Shown: positions 5,660 through 29,652 of the stretch, piece by piece
Numbering within the stretch: position 1 is the first letter of the stretch
How the letters are laid out: every line of letters starts with the position of its first letter
Assembly: GCA_947381435.1 (NCBI GenBank)
Contig: CANCVE010000045.1
Coordinates: 1 to 32,350, forward strand
DNA: 32,350 nucleotides
Direction of reading: 5' to 3'
Origin: Chitinophagaceae bacterium
GTDB lineage: Bacteria; Bacteroidota; Bacteroidia; Chitinophagales; Chitinophagaceae
Translations under genes and position numbers: made by a program
The notes under the pieces: generated by a model
The model's database searches: none
What the model was told of the DNA's origin: nothing
What the model saw: only the letters and a program-made list of their open reading frames with translations

Positions 5660-6674
5660 TAGTAATATAAAATAGAAGTTGGATTAAATATGACCTATAA
5701 AAATTTATGATTACTAATTTTAACATTGAACTTATTCAAACCTTTTATCCTTCCGCATTAATAGGTCAGAATGCAGTGAGCAAAATTAATAAGCAAAAAT
5801 TAACTGTAAGTATATTGAGATTTCTTAATTAAAATCCCTACCAATCAATTGGAATTTCTAGATACGCTTCGCTTTAACTACTACGAGCGGCGTAATTATA
5901 CTTCGCTTAGCTGATTGTTTTTAAAATCCATATAAAGTATTATTGTTTTCAATATAAAAAGCCCCCAATCACTTTTCAACAATTAAGAGCTAATATTCGA
6001 ATTCCCAATTCTGTTGCCACTTCAAACAGACTCATCGCGTCATCTCCTACAAATATCTACACTAATTTACAATCAATTAGCATTAATTCATAAATAATGA
6101 AAGTATTGTGGATAGCTTTGGAGTGATTCTGGCTGGATATGCGCAAATAATAACATTTAGAGTAGTTCTCATTTAAGAATGCACTCTTTAACGTTAAGGG
6201 GAGCATCTTATTTATATATATATACTCCTTAACACTCTTTGGTGTATGTTTAAAATAAATAGACGAGCATAAATGCTACGGAGAACATATTTATTTGAAA
6301 CATGCTCTCAGTAACGCAAAGTATTGAATGTTTAAAATAAAAATGCCCCCAGTAAGCCTATTTGGTGCATTCTTAAAAATAAGATGCTCCCAGTAACATC
6401 ATTTAGTGTATTCTTAATATAGGAATGCTCCAAGTAACATCATTTGGTGTATTCTTAATACAGGAATGCTCCAAGTAACATAAAAAATTTCTTTTAGGGC
6501 TGTAATAAATATTTATTTTCATAACTGCTCTAAATACACTGTATTGTACTTTTAATAGACTACTTTCACCCAATAAAATTATCTAGATAAAGGACGACCT
6601 AATTGCCCGCCCCCACATTTTCCTAGTTTCATAAACATTTCAAAAGTTTTTTTCATTCTTTTAAATCGTTCATC
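5660..6674. other. Gene-free interval with degenerate repeats
   Basis: About 1 kb of AT-rich DNA with stops in all frames and no coding signal I can support. The right half (about 6140-6483) holds the tandem array listed separately. The left part (5660-6140) has only short inverted repeats and no recognisable gene remnant. Confidence 0.6.
6140..6483. repeat. Degenerate 41-bp tandem array of hairpin-forming units
   Basis: Three clean 41-bp units lie at 6361-6401, 6402-6442 and 6443-6483. Each begins TTTGGTGTATTCTTAA (or close to it) and ends AATGCTCCAAGTAACAT. More diverged copies extend left to about 6140. Each unit is roughly self-complementary (GCATTCTTA ... TAAGATGC in the first), so each could form a small hairpin. 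Confidence 0.8.
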
Positions 6675-10421: not shown

Positions 10422-11427
10422 ATGATATTATTACATTTAAAGTGCAAGTGTTTTATCAAACATGTGTTCCCTACCTCTTCTAAAATTAGTTTTGTCTGAT
10501 AGTAAAGTAAATCTGCTTCAACATAATATTTTGAGTCAATCTATCTTGCTTTTTATTTCTTTCCAAAGTCTTTGAATAATATTTAAAAGAGGGAATCAGG
10601 TGGTAAAAAAAATAAAAAAAGGTTTCTTGAAGCCCATATTTCCTTCATTTCTATCGTTTTCTTTGACTTATGAATTTTTGCATTATCTAGTATCACAATT
10701 GTGCTTTTTTAATTAGAATGAAAACATATCCAACTGATGTATTATAAAATCAGTAGTAATATTTTCAGTAGTAGTATTATAGAAGAACTTGTTATATCTT
10801 GCCAACAAGCCAAAACAATAAATCTGGGTTGACTTTGATGAAACTACACGGGCATCCTCGTTCTTATACTGCCACCCTTAGGGTACATACTCTTCTTCTG
10901 ATATTTGACTCTCATCTCCGTAATATATATCTATTTCTCCTTTATCAGACCTTTGTTCTAGTAAAGCCAACTGTTCAACTTTTGTAGTATAAAAATCTTT
11001 GCAGCATTTACCTTTCGGACGTTTCCTTATTCGCTTTTAACAGCAGTTATAACTTTTAAAAATGAGTTAACGTTTTTTGACTAAACTATAGATTCAATTT
11101 TTTCTAAATAATTACTTTAGCTTGAGATAGTCGCTGTCTTTCATTGGTAACCGCACATCTAATAATTGCAGCATTATCTTATTGCAAAATAGCCTTCCGA
11201 CCTCGTCCTGATTATGTATACAAGCCTTCAATACCAGTCTTCGCATAACGACATACCCAAATATTTACACTTGCTTCGCTACAGCCTACCATCTTGCAAA
11301 TTTCATAATAACTGTAGCCTTCTATTTTTAATAATATCATTTGACATCGCTGCCGTATACAATGCATTTTATCTGTTCTTTGAATATTCTGTAAAGAAAT
11401 TTTATCTAATTCGTTAATTTGTATCAT
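10418..11427 (-). pseudogene. Decayed IS630-family transposase
   Basis: Translating the minus strand from 11427 to 10418 with frame changes gives a nearly full-length (about 335 codon) IS630-type transposase. The helix-turn-helix N-terminus is intact for 71 codons (ICKMVGCSEASVNIWVCRYA), then a stop at 11212-11214. Downstream pieces in shifted frames show the DDE core: YYGDESQ (near 10906-10926), VILDNAKIHKSKK (near 10661-10690), and LPPDS followed by IIQRLWKEIK (10602-10558), where the usual third acidic residue has been replaced. The final in-frame tail ends at the TAA at 10418. Multiple stops and frameshifts show it cannot make an active enzyme. No terminal inverted repeats were identified with confidence. 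Confidence 0.85.
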
Positions 11428-15052: not shown

Positions 15053-16198
15053 ATGAAATTATTCGATGTTTACCCATTAAACAACATTACGATAACTAGC
15101 GCAAAAGGTAGCACTGTTTGGGATGAAAATGGTGTGCAGTACTTGGACATGTATGGCGGTCACGCTGTAATTAGTATCGGACACACACATCCGCATTGGG
15201 TGAAACGCATTGAGGAGCAGTTGGAAAAGATTGCTTTTTATTCTAATTCCATCATCATTCCTATCCAAGCACAGTTGGCAGAAAAGTTGGGAAAGGTGAG
15301 TGGCAAGGAAGATTACCAATTATTTCTTTGCAATAGTGGTGCAGAGGCAAATGAGAATGCACTTAAATTAGCAAGCTTTCATAATGGCAAAAAGAAAGTG
15401 ATTGCTTTTAGTAAATCCTTCCACGGACGTACTTCTTTGGCGGTTGCGGCTACAGATAATCCATCTATCGTTGCTCCGGTTAATGAAACTGATAACATCA
15501 TTTTCCTTCCTTTTAATGACGAAGCCGCTCTAACGGAGTGCTTTGAAAAGCATGGCAATGAGATTTCTTCGGTTATCATAGAAGGCATTCAAGGTGTTGG
15601 CGGGATAGTTTCTGCCAATACTAGTTTTTTACAATTGATAAGAACGTTGTGCGATAAGTACAATGCGGTTTATATAGCTGATAGTGTGCAGTGTGGTTAT
15701 GGACGGAGCGGACAGTTTTTTGCCCACGATTATGCGGGCGTTAATGCCGACATTTATTCTATGGCTAAGGGTATGGGCAATGGTTTTCCTATCGGCGGCA
15801 TCTTGATTGCGCCTCATATCAAGGCTAAATATGGTTTGCTAGGCACTACTTTCGGCGGTAATCATTTGGCTTGTGCAGCGGCATTGGCAGTGTTGGAAGT
15901 GATCGAACAAGATGGGTTGATTAATTATGCAAAAGAATTAGGAGCCTATATTACAGAAGAATTAAAAGGCATTGACGGGATACAAAATGTTCGTGGCAAG
16001 GGCTTGATGATTGGCTTTGATGTACCCGAAGAATTGAAGGATTTGAAAAAGACTTTATTGACTGAGTTCAAAGTTTTCACCGGGGAAGCGAAACCTAATG
16101 TCATCCGTTTATTACCTTCTTTGGCTTTGACGAAGGCTCATACAGATGAGTTTTTGAGTGCTTTGAAAGGAGCAATTGAGTTGTTGAAAGCAAAATAG
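15053..16198 (+). CDS. argD: Acetylornithine (or succinylornithine) aminotransferase
   Basis: PLP-dependent class III aminotransferase making N-acyl-ornithine from the semialdehyde and glutamate. The 381-aa length is typical. NSGAEANENALKLA (94-107) binds the PLP phosphate, and K239 in SMAKGMGNGFPIGG forms the Schiff base. D210 contacts the PLP ring; the usual DEVQ is here DSVQ (ADSVQCGYGRSG). TTFGGNHLACAAALAVL is the standard downstream segment. The usual ambiguity among ArgD, succinylornithine transaminase and related enzymes is settled by the position between argC and argF'. A TAAAACGTATAAC intergenic repeat lies just upstream. Confidence 0.94.
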   Translation: MKLFDVYPLNNITITSAKGSTVWDENGVQYLDMYGGHAVISIGHTHPHWVKRIEEQLEKIAFYSNSIIIPIQAQLAEKLGKVSGKEDYQLFLCNSGAEANENALKLASFHNGKKKVIAFSKSFHGRTSLAVAATDNPSIVAPVNETDNIIFLPFNDEAALTECFEKHGNEISSVIIEGIQGVGGIVSANTSFLQLIRTLCDKYNAVYIADSVQCGYGRSGQFFAHDYAGVNADIYSMAKGMGNGFPIGGILIAPHIKAKYGLLGTTFGGNHLACAAALAVLEVIEQDGLINYAKELGAYITEELKGIDGIQNVRGKGLMIGFDVPEELKDLKKTLLTEFKVFTGEAKPNVIRLLPSLALTKAHTDEFLSALKGAIELLKAK

Positions 16199-16276
16199 CA
16201 ATTAGATTGTTTGGTGTCGCAAATTGCGATACCTACTTAAAAAGCTCTTTGGTTTGTAAAAATTGCATTTTCTAGA

Positions 16277-16477
16277 GGAGTAAAATTGACTCCTCATAGA
16301 GTGAAATTCATTCCTCCAAGAGTAAAATTCACTCCTACAGGAGAAAAATTCATTCTTATAGGAGTGAAAATCACTCCTCCTAGAGTAAAATTCATTCCTC
16401 TAAGAGTGAAATTCATTTCTCGAAGAGTAAAATTGATTCCTCCAAGAGTGAAATTGTTTCCTCTAAGAGTGGATTAC
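16277..16477 (+). repeat. 21-bp near-palindromic tandem array, 9.5 copies, upstream of argF'
   Basis: Nine 21-bp units (16277-16465) plus a partial tenth, consensus AGAGTGAAATTCATTCCTCC plus one base. The best units contain GGAGT ... ACTCC stems, so each is a small hairpin. The period is two helical turns and also seven codons. In the argF' frame the array reads without stops as about nine heptads similar to RVKFIPP. The pattern resembles a dispersed palindromic repeat more than a protein domain. Confidence 0.9.
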
Positions 16478-16528
16478 ATAATAAAAAGTATTTATCATCA
16501 AAATATGCCGCAGAAGCGGGTTTGGATT

Positions 16529-17524
16529 ATGAAACAATTTATTTCGGTTAATGATTTAATAACGACTGCGCAACCAAATATTGGTGCTGCCATCAATGAT
16601 TTGGCCAAAAAGGCATTGGCATATAAGGCCAATCCGATGATAGATAAGGCATTGGGGGCTAATAAACGTATCGGGCTTTTATTTCTCAATCCGAGCTTGC
16701 GTACAAGACTAAGTACTCAGGTAGCCGCTCAGAATTTGGGGATGGAAGCCATTGTTTTTAATGTGGATAAGGAAGGGTGGGCATTGGAGTTTGAAGAAGG
16801 AGCCATCATGAGCGGAAATACGGTGGAACACATTAAAGATGCTGCCCCAATAATGGGTTTATATTTTGATATATTGGCGATTAGAACTTTCCCTGGCTTG
16901 CAAAACCGCACGGATGATTACAGCGAAATGTATGTGAATCAGTTTATCAAATATGCCGGCGTTCCTGTGGTAAGTTTGGAGAGTGCTACGTTACATCCGT
17001 TGCAATCTTTCACGGATATTATCACGATTCAGGAAGATTTATTGGCTAATCCATCAACAAAAAAGCGTCCTAAAGTGGTGCTTACATGGGCACCTCACGT
17101 AAAACCTTTGCCTCAATGTGTGGCAAATAGTTTTGCAGAATGGATTAATGCTTGGGGCGAGGCAGACTTTGTAATTACGCATCCGGAAGGTTATGCTTTG
17201 GATGAAAAGTTTACAAAAGGGGCTACAATCAATCAAAATCAGGATGAAGCTTTGGCTGATGCCGATTATATATATGTGAAGAATTGGAGCACTTACCACG
17301 ATTATGGAAAGATGCATACCAACGATCCACGCTGGATGCTGACAAAGGAAAAGTTGGCATTAACGAACAATGCAAAAGTGATGCACTGTCTTCCTGTGAG
17401 AAGAAATGTGGAATTGAGCGATGAGATATTGGATAGTCCGAATAGCATCGTTACACAAGAAGCGGGTAACAGGGTTTGGGCGGCACAAGCGGTGTTGGCG
17501 GAAATTTTGAGGACGAAGAAGTAG
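16529..17524 (+). CDS. argF': N-acyl-ornithine carbamoyltransferase (ArgF' type)
   Basis: Transfers a carbamoyl group from carbamoyl phosphate to N-acetyl- or N-succinyl-ornithine, the Bacteroidota/Xanthomonas variant of the OTC step. The protein is 331 aa from the ATG at 16529; the frame is open a further 81 codons upstream through the 21-bp array. Carbamoyl-phosphate motifs are SLRTR (56-60, in place of STRTR) and HPLQS (156-160); HCLPVRRN is at 286-293. SLRTR plus the proline-rich segment LTWAPHVKPLPQ are marks of the N-acyl-ornithine enzymes, not ordinary OTC. The specificity position (Glu in acetyl, Pro in succinyl enzymes, by my recollection) aligns with V99 in NTVEHI, so the acyl group is not decided. 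The ATG start is not proven experimentally. Confidence 0.92.
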   Translation: MKQFISVNDLITTAQPNIGAAINDLAKKALAYKANPMIDKALGANKRIGLLFLNPSLRTRLSTQVAAQNLGMEAIVFNVDKEGWALEFEEGAIMSGNTVEHIKDAAPIMGLYFDILAIRTFPGLQNRTDDYSEMYVNQFIKYAGVPVVSLESATLHPLQSFTDIITIQEDLLANPSTKKRPKVVLTWAPHVKPLPQCVANSFAEWINAWGEADFVITHPEGYALDEKFTKGATINQNQDEALADADYIYVKNWSTYHDYGKMHTNDPRWMLTKEKLALTNNAKVMHCLPVRRNVELSDEILDSPNSIVTQEAGNRVWAAQAVLAEILRTKK

Positions 17525-17580
17525 TACGTTATAAGTTTTACGTAATACGTATTAGGTTGTAGGTATTAAGTAGTAAGTAA
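17524..17580. repeat. Dispersed intergenic repeat copy after argF'
   Basis: GTACGTTATAAGTTTTACGTA here is the inverse of the 12.7-kb copy: its reverse complement contains CGTAAAACTTATAACGTA, matching CGTAAAACTTACAACGTA upstream of argG at 17 of 18 bases. Related pieces lie upstream of argD (15031-15047) and, inverted, at 30921-30937. Confidence 0.7.
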
Positions 17581-29496: not shown

Positions 29497-29643
29497 GGCA
29501 CAAAGTGTAATCATTGCTATATGTGAAGCTTTCATTGGCATACAAAGCTTCATCATTGGTATATGTGAAGCTTTCATTGGCATACAAAGCTTAATCATTG
29601 GTATATGTGAAGCTTTCATTGGCATACAAAGCTTAATCATTGG
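29497..29643. repeat. 21-bp alternating tandem array, 7 copies
   Basis: Seven 21-bp units at 29497-29643 alternate between two types, TATATGTGAAGCTTTCATTG and CATACAAAGCTTAATCATTG, each ending in G and sharing AAGCTT and CATTGG. The pair makes a 42-bp super-unit. No coding frame runs through it. Confidence 0.88.
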
Positions 29644-29652
29644 TATTAAAAA

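Follow-up and report, generated by a model that had tools for sequence, protein, structure and literature searches.

The 21-bp repeat array upstream of argF' in an uncultured member of the Chitinophagaceae is not an argF' device; taken as a whole, it is probably best explained as one of the non-coding satellite arrays that occur across a single genus of this family. An estimated couple of hundred such intergenic arrays share the same step, 21 bp or about double that, while their letters are mostly unrelated, and something other than argF' therefore seems to set that step. The array lies in a window of 32,350 nucleotides (assembly GCA_947381435.1, contig CANCVE010000045.1), by which we mean the whole stretch of DNA that was analyzed, with the following features:

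6332..6481, no strand: third array of the window, 41-bp period, 3.7 copies; unit unrelated to the argF' unit
15053..16198, + strand: argD-like aminotransferase gene, the left neighbor; TIGR00707 is the best match at 353.2 bits, below its cut-off of 410
16278..16470, no strand: the array in front of argF', 9.2 near-palindromic 21-bp units of family A, AGGAGTGAAATTCACTCCT-like
16491..16528, + strand: short 38-bp leader directly 5' of argF', from the alignment of genomes G000, G001, G005, G006 and G010
16529..17524, + strand: argF' (N-acetylornithine carbamoyltransferase-like), 331 aa from ATG 16529
29500..29646, no strand: second array of the window, 21/42 bp; unit unrelated to the argF' unit, with unit relatives in G005 (L164, L175)

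Anatomy of the array

TRF places the array at 16278-16470 with a period of 21, 9.2 copies, 78% matches and no indels, bearing out an earlier note that had described 21-bp near-palindromic units there from the letters alone. A repeat search of 16200-16540 found one direct-repeat family, made of eight overlapping 89-nt copies in register at a spacing of 21. The units are indeed near-palindromic, though imperfectly so: their strict Watson-Crick dyad score of 5.25 out of 8 compares with 4.31 in column-permuted controls, which retain the tandem structure while scrambling the unit (p = 0.06), and the self-folding of both strands taken together is better than in such controls (p = 0.033). With 9.2 head-to-tail copies, no coding signal and family A at six places in the genome of the window, G000 (C45, C13, C165, C85, C61 and C132), the array has the properties of a non-coding bacterial satellite (minisatellite). 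Its 21-bp units are contiguous, without the unique spacers that separate CRISPR repeats, and a promoter and terminator scan across it gave no useful signal (three weak promoter-like sites versus 1.7 expected). The product of the gene downstream scores 282.6 bits with the NCBIfam model for N-acetylornithine carbamoyltransferase (NF003384/PRK04523), just short of the cut-off of 288, and both of its Pfam OTCace domains exceed theirs.

Arrays of one step across a genus

We counted arrays with at least three copies and a period of 20-22 or 40-44 bp in stretches sampled from the genus (13 genomes), from 10 further genera in its family and from 15 genera of the order's other families. Without six stretches picked for holding an array or the argF' locus, the genus has 57 arrays in 1,281,071 bp, or 44.5/Mb, with periods of 21 (38 arrays), 22 (1), 41 (6), 42 (9), 43 (2) and 44 (1); the short arrays are exactly 21 bp in 38 of 39 cases. 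Nine of the 13 genomes have arrays by this criterion, and the four others are G002, G004 and G008, each sampled over less than 15 kb, and G012, sampled over 60 kb, which has one weaker array, lying in a dropped stretch. Outside the genus, there are no arrays by the same criterion in 1.11 Mb overall: 0 in 387,180 bp from the 10 further genera within the family, 0 in 241,683 bp from the 15 genera of other families and 0 in the 479,827 bp that make up 72 named argF' loci. Excluded from these loci were L041, L042, L043 and L069, which belong to the genus genomes G004, G008, G012 and G011, respectively, and likewise L047 (83% identity); none of the five has arrays. The 19 arrays in 380 kb of G000 extrapolate to about 240 genome-wide. 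The genomes are fragmented draft assemblies, in which array copy numbers may be wrong.

When all noncoding arrays with a period of at least 10 are taken, targeted stretches included, the genus has 70 in 1,408,524 bp: 42 at 21, 1 at 22, 20 at 41-44, 4 at 14 and one each at 37, 81 and 85, with none at 15-20 or 23-36. Moreover, once arrays are masked, exact 9-mer repeats in the genus's noncoding DNA still show peaks, at lags 14, 21, 42 and 63 (30, 28, 17 and 9; mean 3.4), a sign of arrays that are decayed or nascent; the corresponding count outside the genus at lag 21, 3 against a mean of 0.6, is too small to judge.

Heptad-like arrays of 7 and 14 bp occur both in the genus and at other Chitinophagaceae loci (window 17519-17579; L248:7969-8112, 11137-11276). 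That 21 is three times 7 may be a coincidence.

Unit families and self-complementarity

Clustering the units of 64 arrays (63 noncoding arrays and that of argF') gave six clusters of two or three members and 50 singletons; thus, the step is common to the arrays, while the letters are mostly different. Family A has no match in the other 12 genomes of the genus (1/13 matched), and family C (CCTCGGATGCGACAAAA) occurs at many places in G000, G001, G005, G006 and G010. A family-C match in another genus (G111) sits in a repeat with a 19-bp period and was set aside.

Self-folding beats the column-permuted controls at p ≤ 0.05 in 30 of the 64 arrays, with mean Z values of -1.83 and -1.85 on the two strands; this measure replaced the fold z of the sense/antisense test, which is biased by taking the better of two strands. 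Strict dyads reach p < 0.05 in 25/74 arrays, a set drawn from 76 that omits two 87-bp arrays in long open reading frames and includes two 41-bp arrays (L137:1596 and L135:15685) that are part of a dispersed element of about 600 bp and fall under the three-copy cut of the census, clustering and folding. In 34/64 arrays, self-complementarity is not detectable (p > 0.05), so that foldback cannot account for the mechanism on its own. Among 30 arrays between codirectional genes, the sense strand folds more stably in 13 (Wilcoxon p = 0.38), and the equal folding of both strands, together with the lack of a sense bias, points to DNA rather than RNA. No covariation of the dyad arms was found among the 39 distinct units of family A, since 204 of 1000 shuffles reach the observed pairing; this, like the 34 arrays without detectable self-complementarity, speaks against a hairpin maintained by selection. 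No 10-11-bp sub-period or helical phasing was seen inside the units. In several arrays of 41-44 bp, two dyads stand half a period from each other, which is partly a consequence of symmetry, and this feature was left unused.

Position, turnover and dispersal

Arrays occupy intergenic DNA roughly by its length, irrespective of gene orientation: among the 52 of 63 that could be placed, 17 lie between divergent genes (13.7 expected by length), 29 between codirectional genes (30.6) and 6 between convergent genes (7.7). A preference for divergent regions was a first impression only and disappeared in the comparison with this background.

What occupies a given site changes between close relatives. 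At L137:10913, a family-C site, the flanks of G000 and G005 are 95-97% identical and the interiors differ, one being made of alternating 42-bp units and the other of single 21-bp units; G006 has an array at this site, with only its left flank matching G000, and G010 matches G006 on both sides and has none. One cassette of leader plus gene, seen as L238 in G000 and as L233 in G006, holds 21-bp arrays that occupy one and the same position, ahead of related genes of 210 aa, and are dissimilar; the 210-aa protein of L238 has no NCBIfam or Pfam match. Different arrays at the same sites show that units are replaceable while the step persists. Several of these multi-array orthologous loci were fetched for family C or for a flank match and are thus examples rather than an unbiased rate. 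We found no clean empty site with exact array borders; the polA surroundings and the intergenic flanks of L224:4344 are too diverged.

Some arrays ride in larger dispersed elements. L125 and L238 share a 440-bp stretch, 91% identical, that includes an array, and an element of about 600 bp with a 41-bp array of 2.8 copies lies at L137:1281-1883 (G000:C20), at C1, C18, C123 and C88, and at C28 and C48 of G005.

Several dispersed sequences were also noted. A GGAGGC..GCCTCC hairpin marks a leader that recurs ahead of a 21-bp array at L238:2984-4034, L233:13011-14204 and L125:11932-12421, and in L238 and L233 this leader precedes the 210-aa gene. A short interspersed element of about 150 bp (L125:18693-18848 and L137:12797-12948) is matched dozens of times in G005 and several times in G000. 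The opening 145-150 bases of the L137 contig (L137:1-150) are found again, with 98-100% identity, where ten other G000 contigs begin and also elsewhere; they probably represent a mobile element in many copies, at which the assembly breaks.

What may set the 21-bp step

We propose that an array begins from a short, often self-complementary stretch and would then lengthen or shorten by 21 bp at a time while DNA is replicated, through slippage, template switching or unequal recombination, with foldback aiding its growth. Units would be homogenized locally, and copies would occasionally reach new sites between genes, in some cases carried along within larger dispersed elements; any effect on argF' would be incidental. 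With less assurance, we suggest that the step might be set not by the unit sequence but by a ruler that acts on the DNA and spans two helical turns, conceivably a dimeric DNA-binding or nucleoid protein or the repeat-making machinery; our search identified no candidate enzyme or binding protein for the arrays. Two helical turns are the natural reading of a 21-bp step, and the earlier note, which had drawn attention to this spacing, was right about the anatomy; the period may still be explained in this way. Since arrays of one, three or five turns and any 10-11-bp sub-period are missing, a simple helical-phase rule is insufficient, and the quantum is 21 bp itself. In its strongest form, which we put forward tentatively and would not be surprised to see fail, the proposal is that the genus has a sequence-independent 21-bp ruler, in which a dedicated activity (a polymerase, a recombinase or a filament-forming DNA protein) would build or keep what we estimate as at least 200 fast-changing, site-specific arrays.

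Alternatively, selection rather than mutation could fix the 21 bp, if the arrays were sites on one face of the helix for a putative cooperative nucleoid or DNA-organizing protein with a loose sequence preference. Several observations fit such a role: 21 and 42 bp correspond to two and four B-DNA turns, the step is held over some 50 unrelated units, the units lean toward dyad symmetry alike on both strands, and array position is independent of gene direction. However, no shared motif was seen among the units, one-, three- and five-turn arrays (10-11, 31-32 and 52-53 bp) and the 10-11-bp sub-period are all absent, no binding protein was identified, and certain intergenic sites have an array in one species and lack it in another. 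We therefore regard selection for protein binding as unlikely.

Comparison with known repeat systems

In the available part of a survey of 119 bacteria, only 18 exceed 4 satellites per Mb, dispersed non-coding families of long repeats are given for Leptospira interrogans alone among bacteria, and the Leptospira families tabulated have unit lengths of 37, 46 and 69 (Subirana and Messeguer 2019, PMC6749651). As that part of the survey describes them, L. interrogans satellites resemble the arrays studied here in being non-coding, intergenic tandem arrays, some of whose families are dispersed in the genome, with no known function (PMC6749651), whereas here the step is 21 or about 42 bp and the units are mostly unrelated. 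A rough copy of the survey's criterion, applied to our sample with all periods counted, gives 37, 50 and 26 satellites per Mb in the three best-sampled genomes (G000, G005 and G006, respectively) and none in the other sampled genera.

The tandem repeats of archaeal Borgs are likewise many independent, fast-evolving arrays that differ at the same site between related genomes and, in the portion of the source consulted, are virtually absent from host genomes (PMC9879509). Borg units are there described as perfect, A-enriched, of varied length and about half within genes (PMC9879509), in contrast to the imperfect, intergenic units here, whose lengths fall into a single class or twice that. A long-read lake metagenome study mentions, in its available text, deletions at tandem repeats between genes, apparently in members of the Planctomycetes (PMC9426551). 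Within the literature covered, from which most subscription journals and all preprints fell outside, we found no published account of 21-bp arrays in this family.

Plasmid iterons are direct repeats of about 20-22 bp with two-helical-turn spacing, where one sequence at the origin serves one Rep protein, and REPs form one or a few families per genome. Compared with iterons, the arrays studied here comprise many different sequences, spread over what we estimate as a couple of hundred sites in the chromosome. A likeness to REP/BIME elements, spread by a Y1 (RAYT) transposase, could be imagined, since the units are palindromic, about 20 bp long and clustered between genes, and G000 has seven matches to PF01797. 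In the sections of the source drawn on here, REPs are short palindromic units, often intergenic, that are tagged at one end by GTAG or CGTC and are thought to be mobilized by RAYTs (PMC3733652). By comparison with that account, the genomes examined here hold many unrelated families each, their units follow head to tail at a step of exactly 21 bp, and there is no constant tag; a regular GTAG or CGTC is missing from the argF' units, and GTAG is present in several units of the C85 array. Moreover, PF01797 is also found in 7/9 other genera examined, which are array-free in the stretches sampled, so that its presence does not track the arrays. An origin as RAYT-mobilized elements is thus quite improbable.

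The argF' locus in relatives

If the array were a hairpin-rich mRNA leader controlling argF' expression, as the earlier note had thought possible, its structure should be conserved upstream of orthologues, as in a cis-regulatory arg leader; instead, we found unrelated arrays or none. The argF' protein is 98-99% identical in four other genomes of the genus, and the region between argD and argF' has no array in G001 and G010, an unrelated 21-bp array of 11.2 copies in G005 and another unrelated one of 5.6 copies in G006. In the more distant G008, no array lies between matching argF' flanks, and none of 21 bp was found in the fetched argF' loci of G004, G008, G011 and G012, irrespective of gene order upstream. 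Thus, three genomes have three arrays that are mutually dissimilar at E ≤ 1e-3 (G000, G005 and G006), and six have none in the stretches fetched. Such shared occupancy is only mildly unexpected, with about 10% of intergenic regions estimated to be occupied. The 38 bp ahead of ATG 16529 are conserved in G000, G001, G005 and G006 and carry two substitutions in G010, and farther upstream the intergenic DNA varies among these five genomes.

In favor of a leader, the array ends 58 bp upstream of the argF' start codon, and the folding of the leader RNA, a check that the earlier note had called for, gives z = -4.85 against dinucleotide shuffles; this value is overstated, because such shuffles destroy the repeat. 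Set against these points are the five relatives with matching flanks and unrelated or absent arrays, the five further places of family A in G000, its lack of covariation, the lack of a sense-strand bias in the 30 arrays between codirectional genes and the absence of any Rfam match in the whole window. We consider control of argF' by hairpins in this leader highly improbable, although the array may have a secondary effect on the gene.

The earlier note's other reading, an N-terminal extension of argF' by up to 81 residues of RVKFIPP heptads, has next to no chance of being right, even though the frame does stay open across the array, as that note had stated, from TTG 16286 to 17524 (412 aa, 81 aa longer than the 331 aa from ATG 16529), and an in-frame ATG 16505 is kept in G001, G005 and G006: in G010 (L018), a TAG stands in frame six codons 5' of the conserved ATG 16529, making an extension through that stretch impossible there, the four closest relatives have open frames of 336-355 aa versus 427 here, and neither codon-position bias nor a conserved frame marks the array as a coding repeat, its heterozygosity at codon positions 1, 2 and 3 being 0.183, 0.215 and 0.183, with 20 nonsynonymous differences and 6 synonymous ones. 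Chance alone leads one to expect an open frame through such an array, because at least one of the six frames is open in 35/42 noncoding arrays of 21 bp, without any excess over the 36.8 expected from column-permuted controls. False open reading frames and N-terminal extensions are therefore to be expected in these genomes, and annotators should be warned by the 412-aa argF' frame as an example.

Significance

Repeat lengths that arise by slippage should vary, whereas here unrelated units share one length or its double. If a ruler does set this length, these chromosomes would hold a structured satellite layer of a kind for which we found no description in other bacteria. The restriction of the arrays to one genus, as against its sampled relatives, amounts to a natural experiment on what fixes the size of tandem repeats, and it also bears on whether bacterial chromosomes can hold a satellite layer with a physical register.
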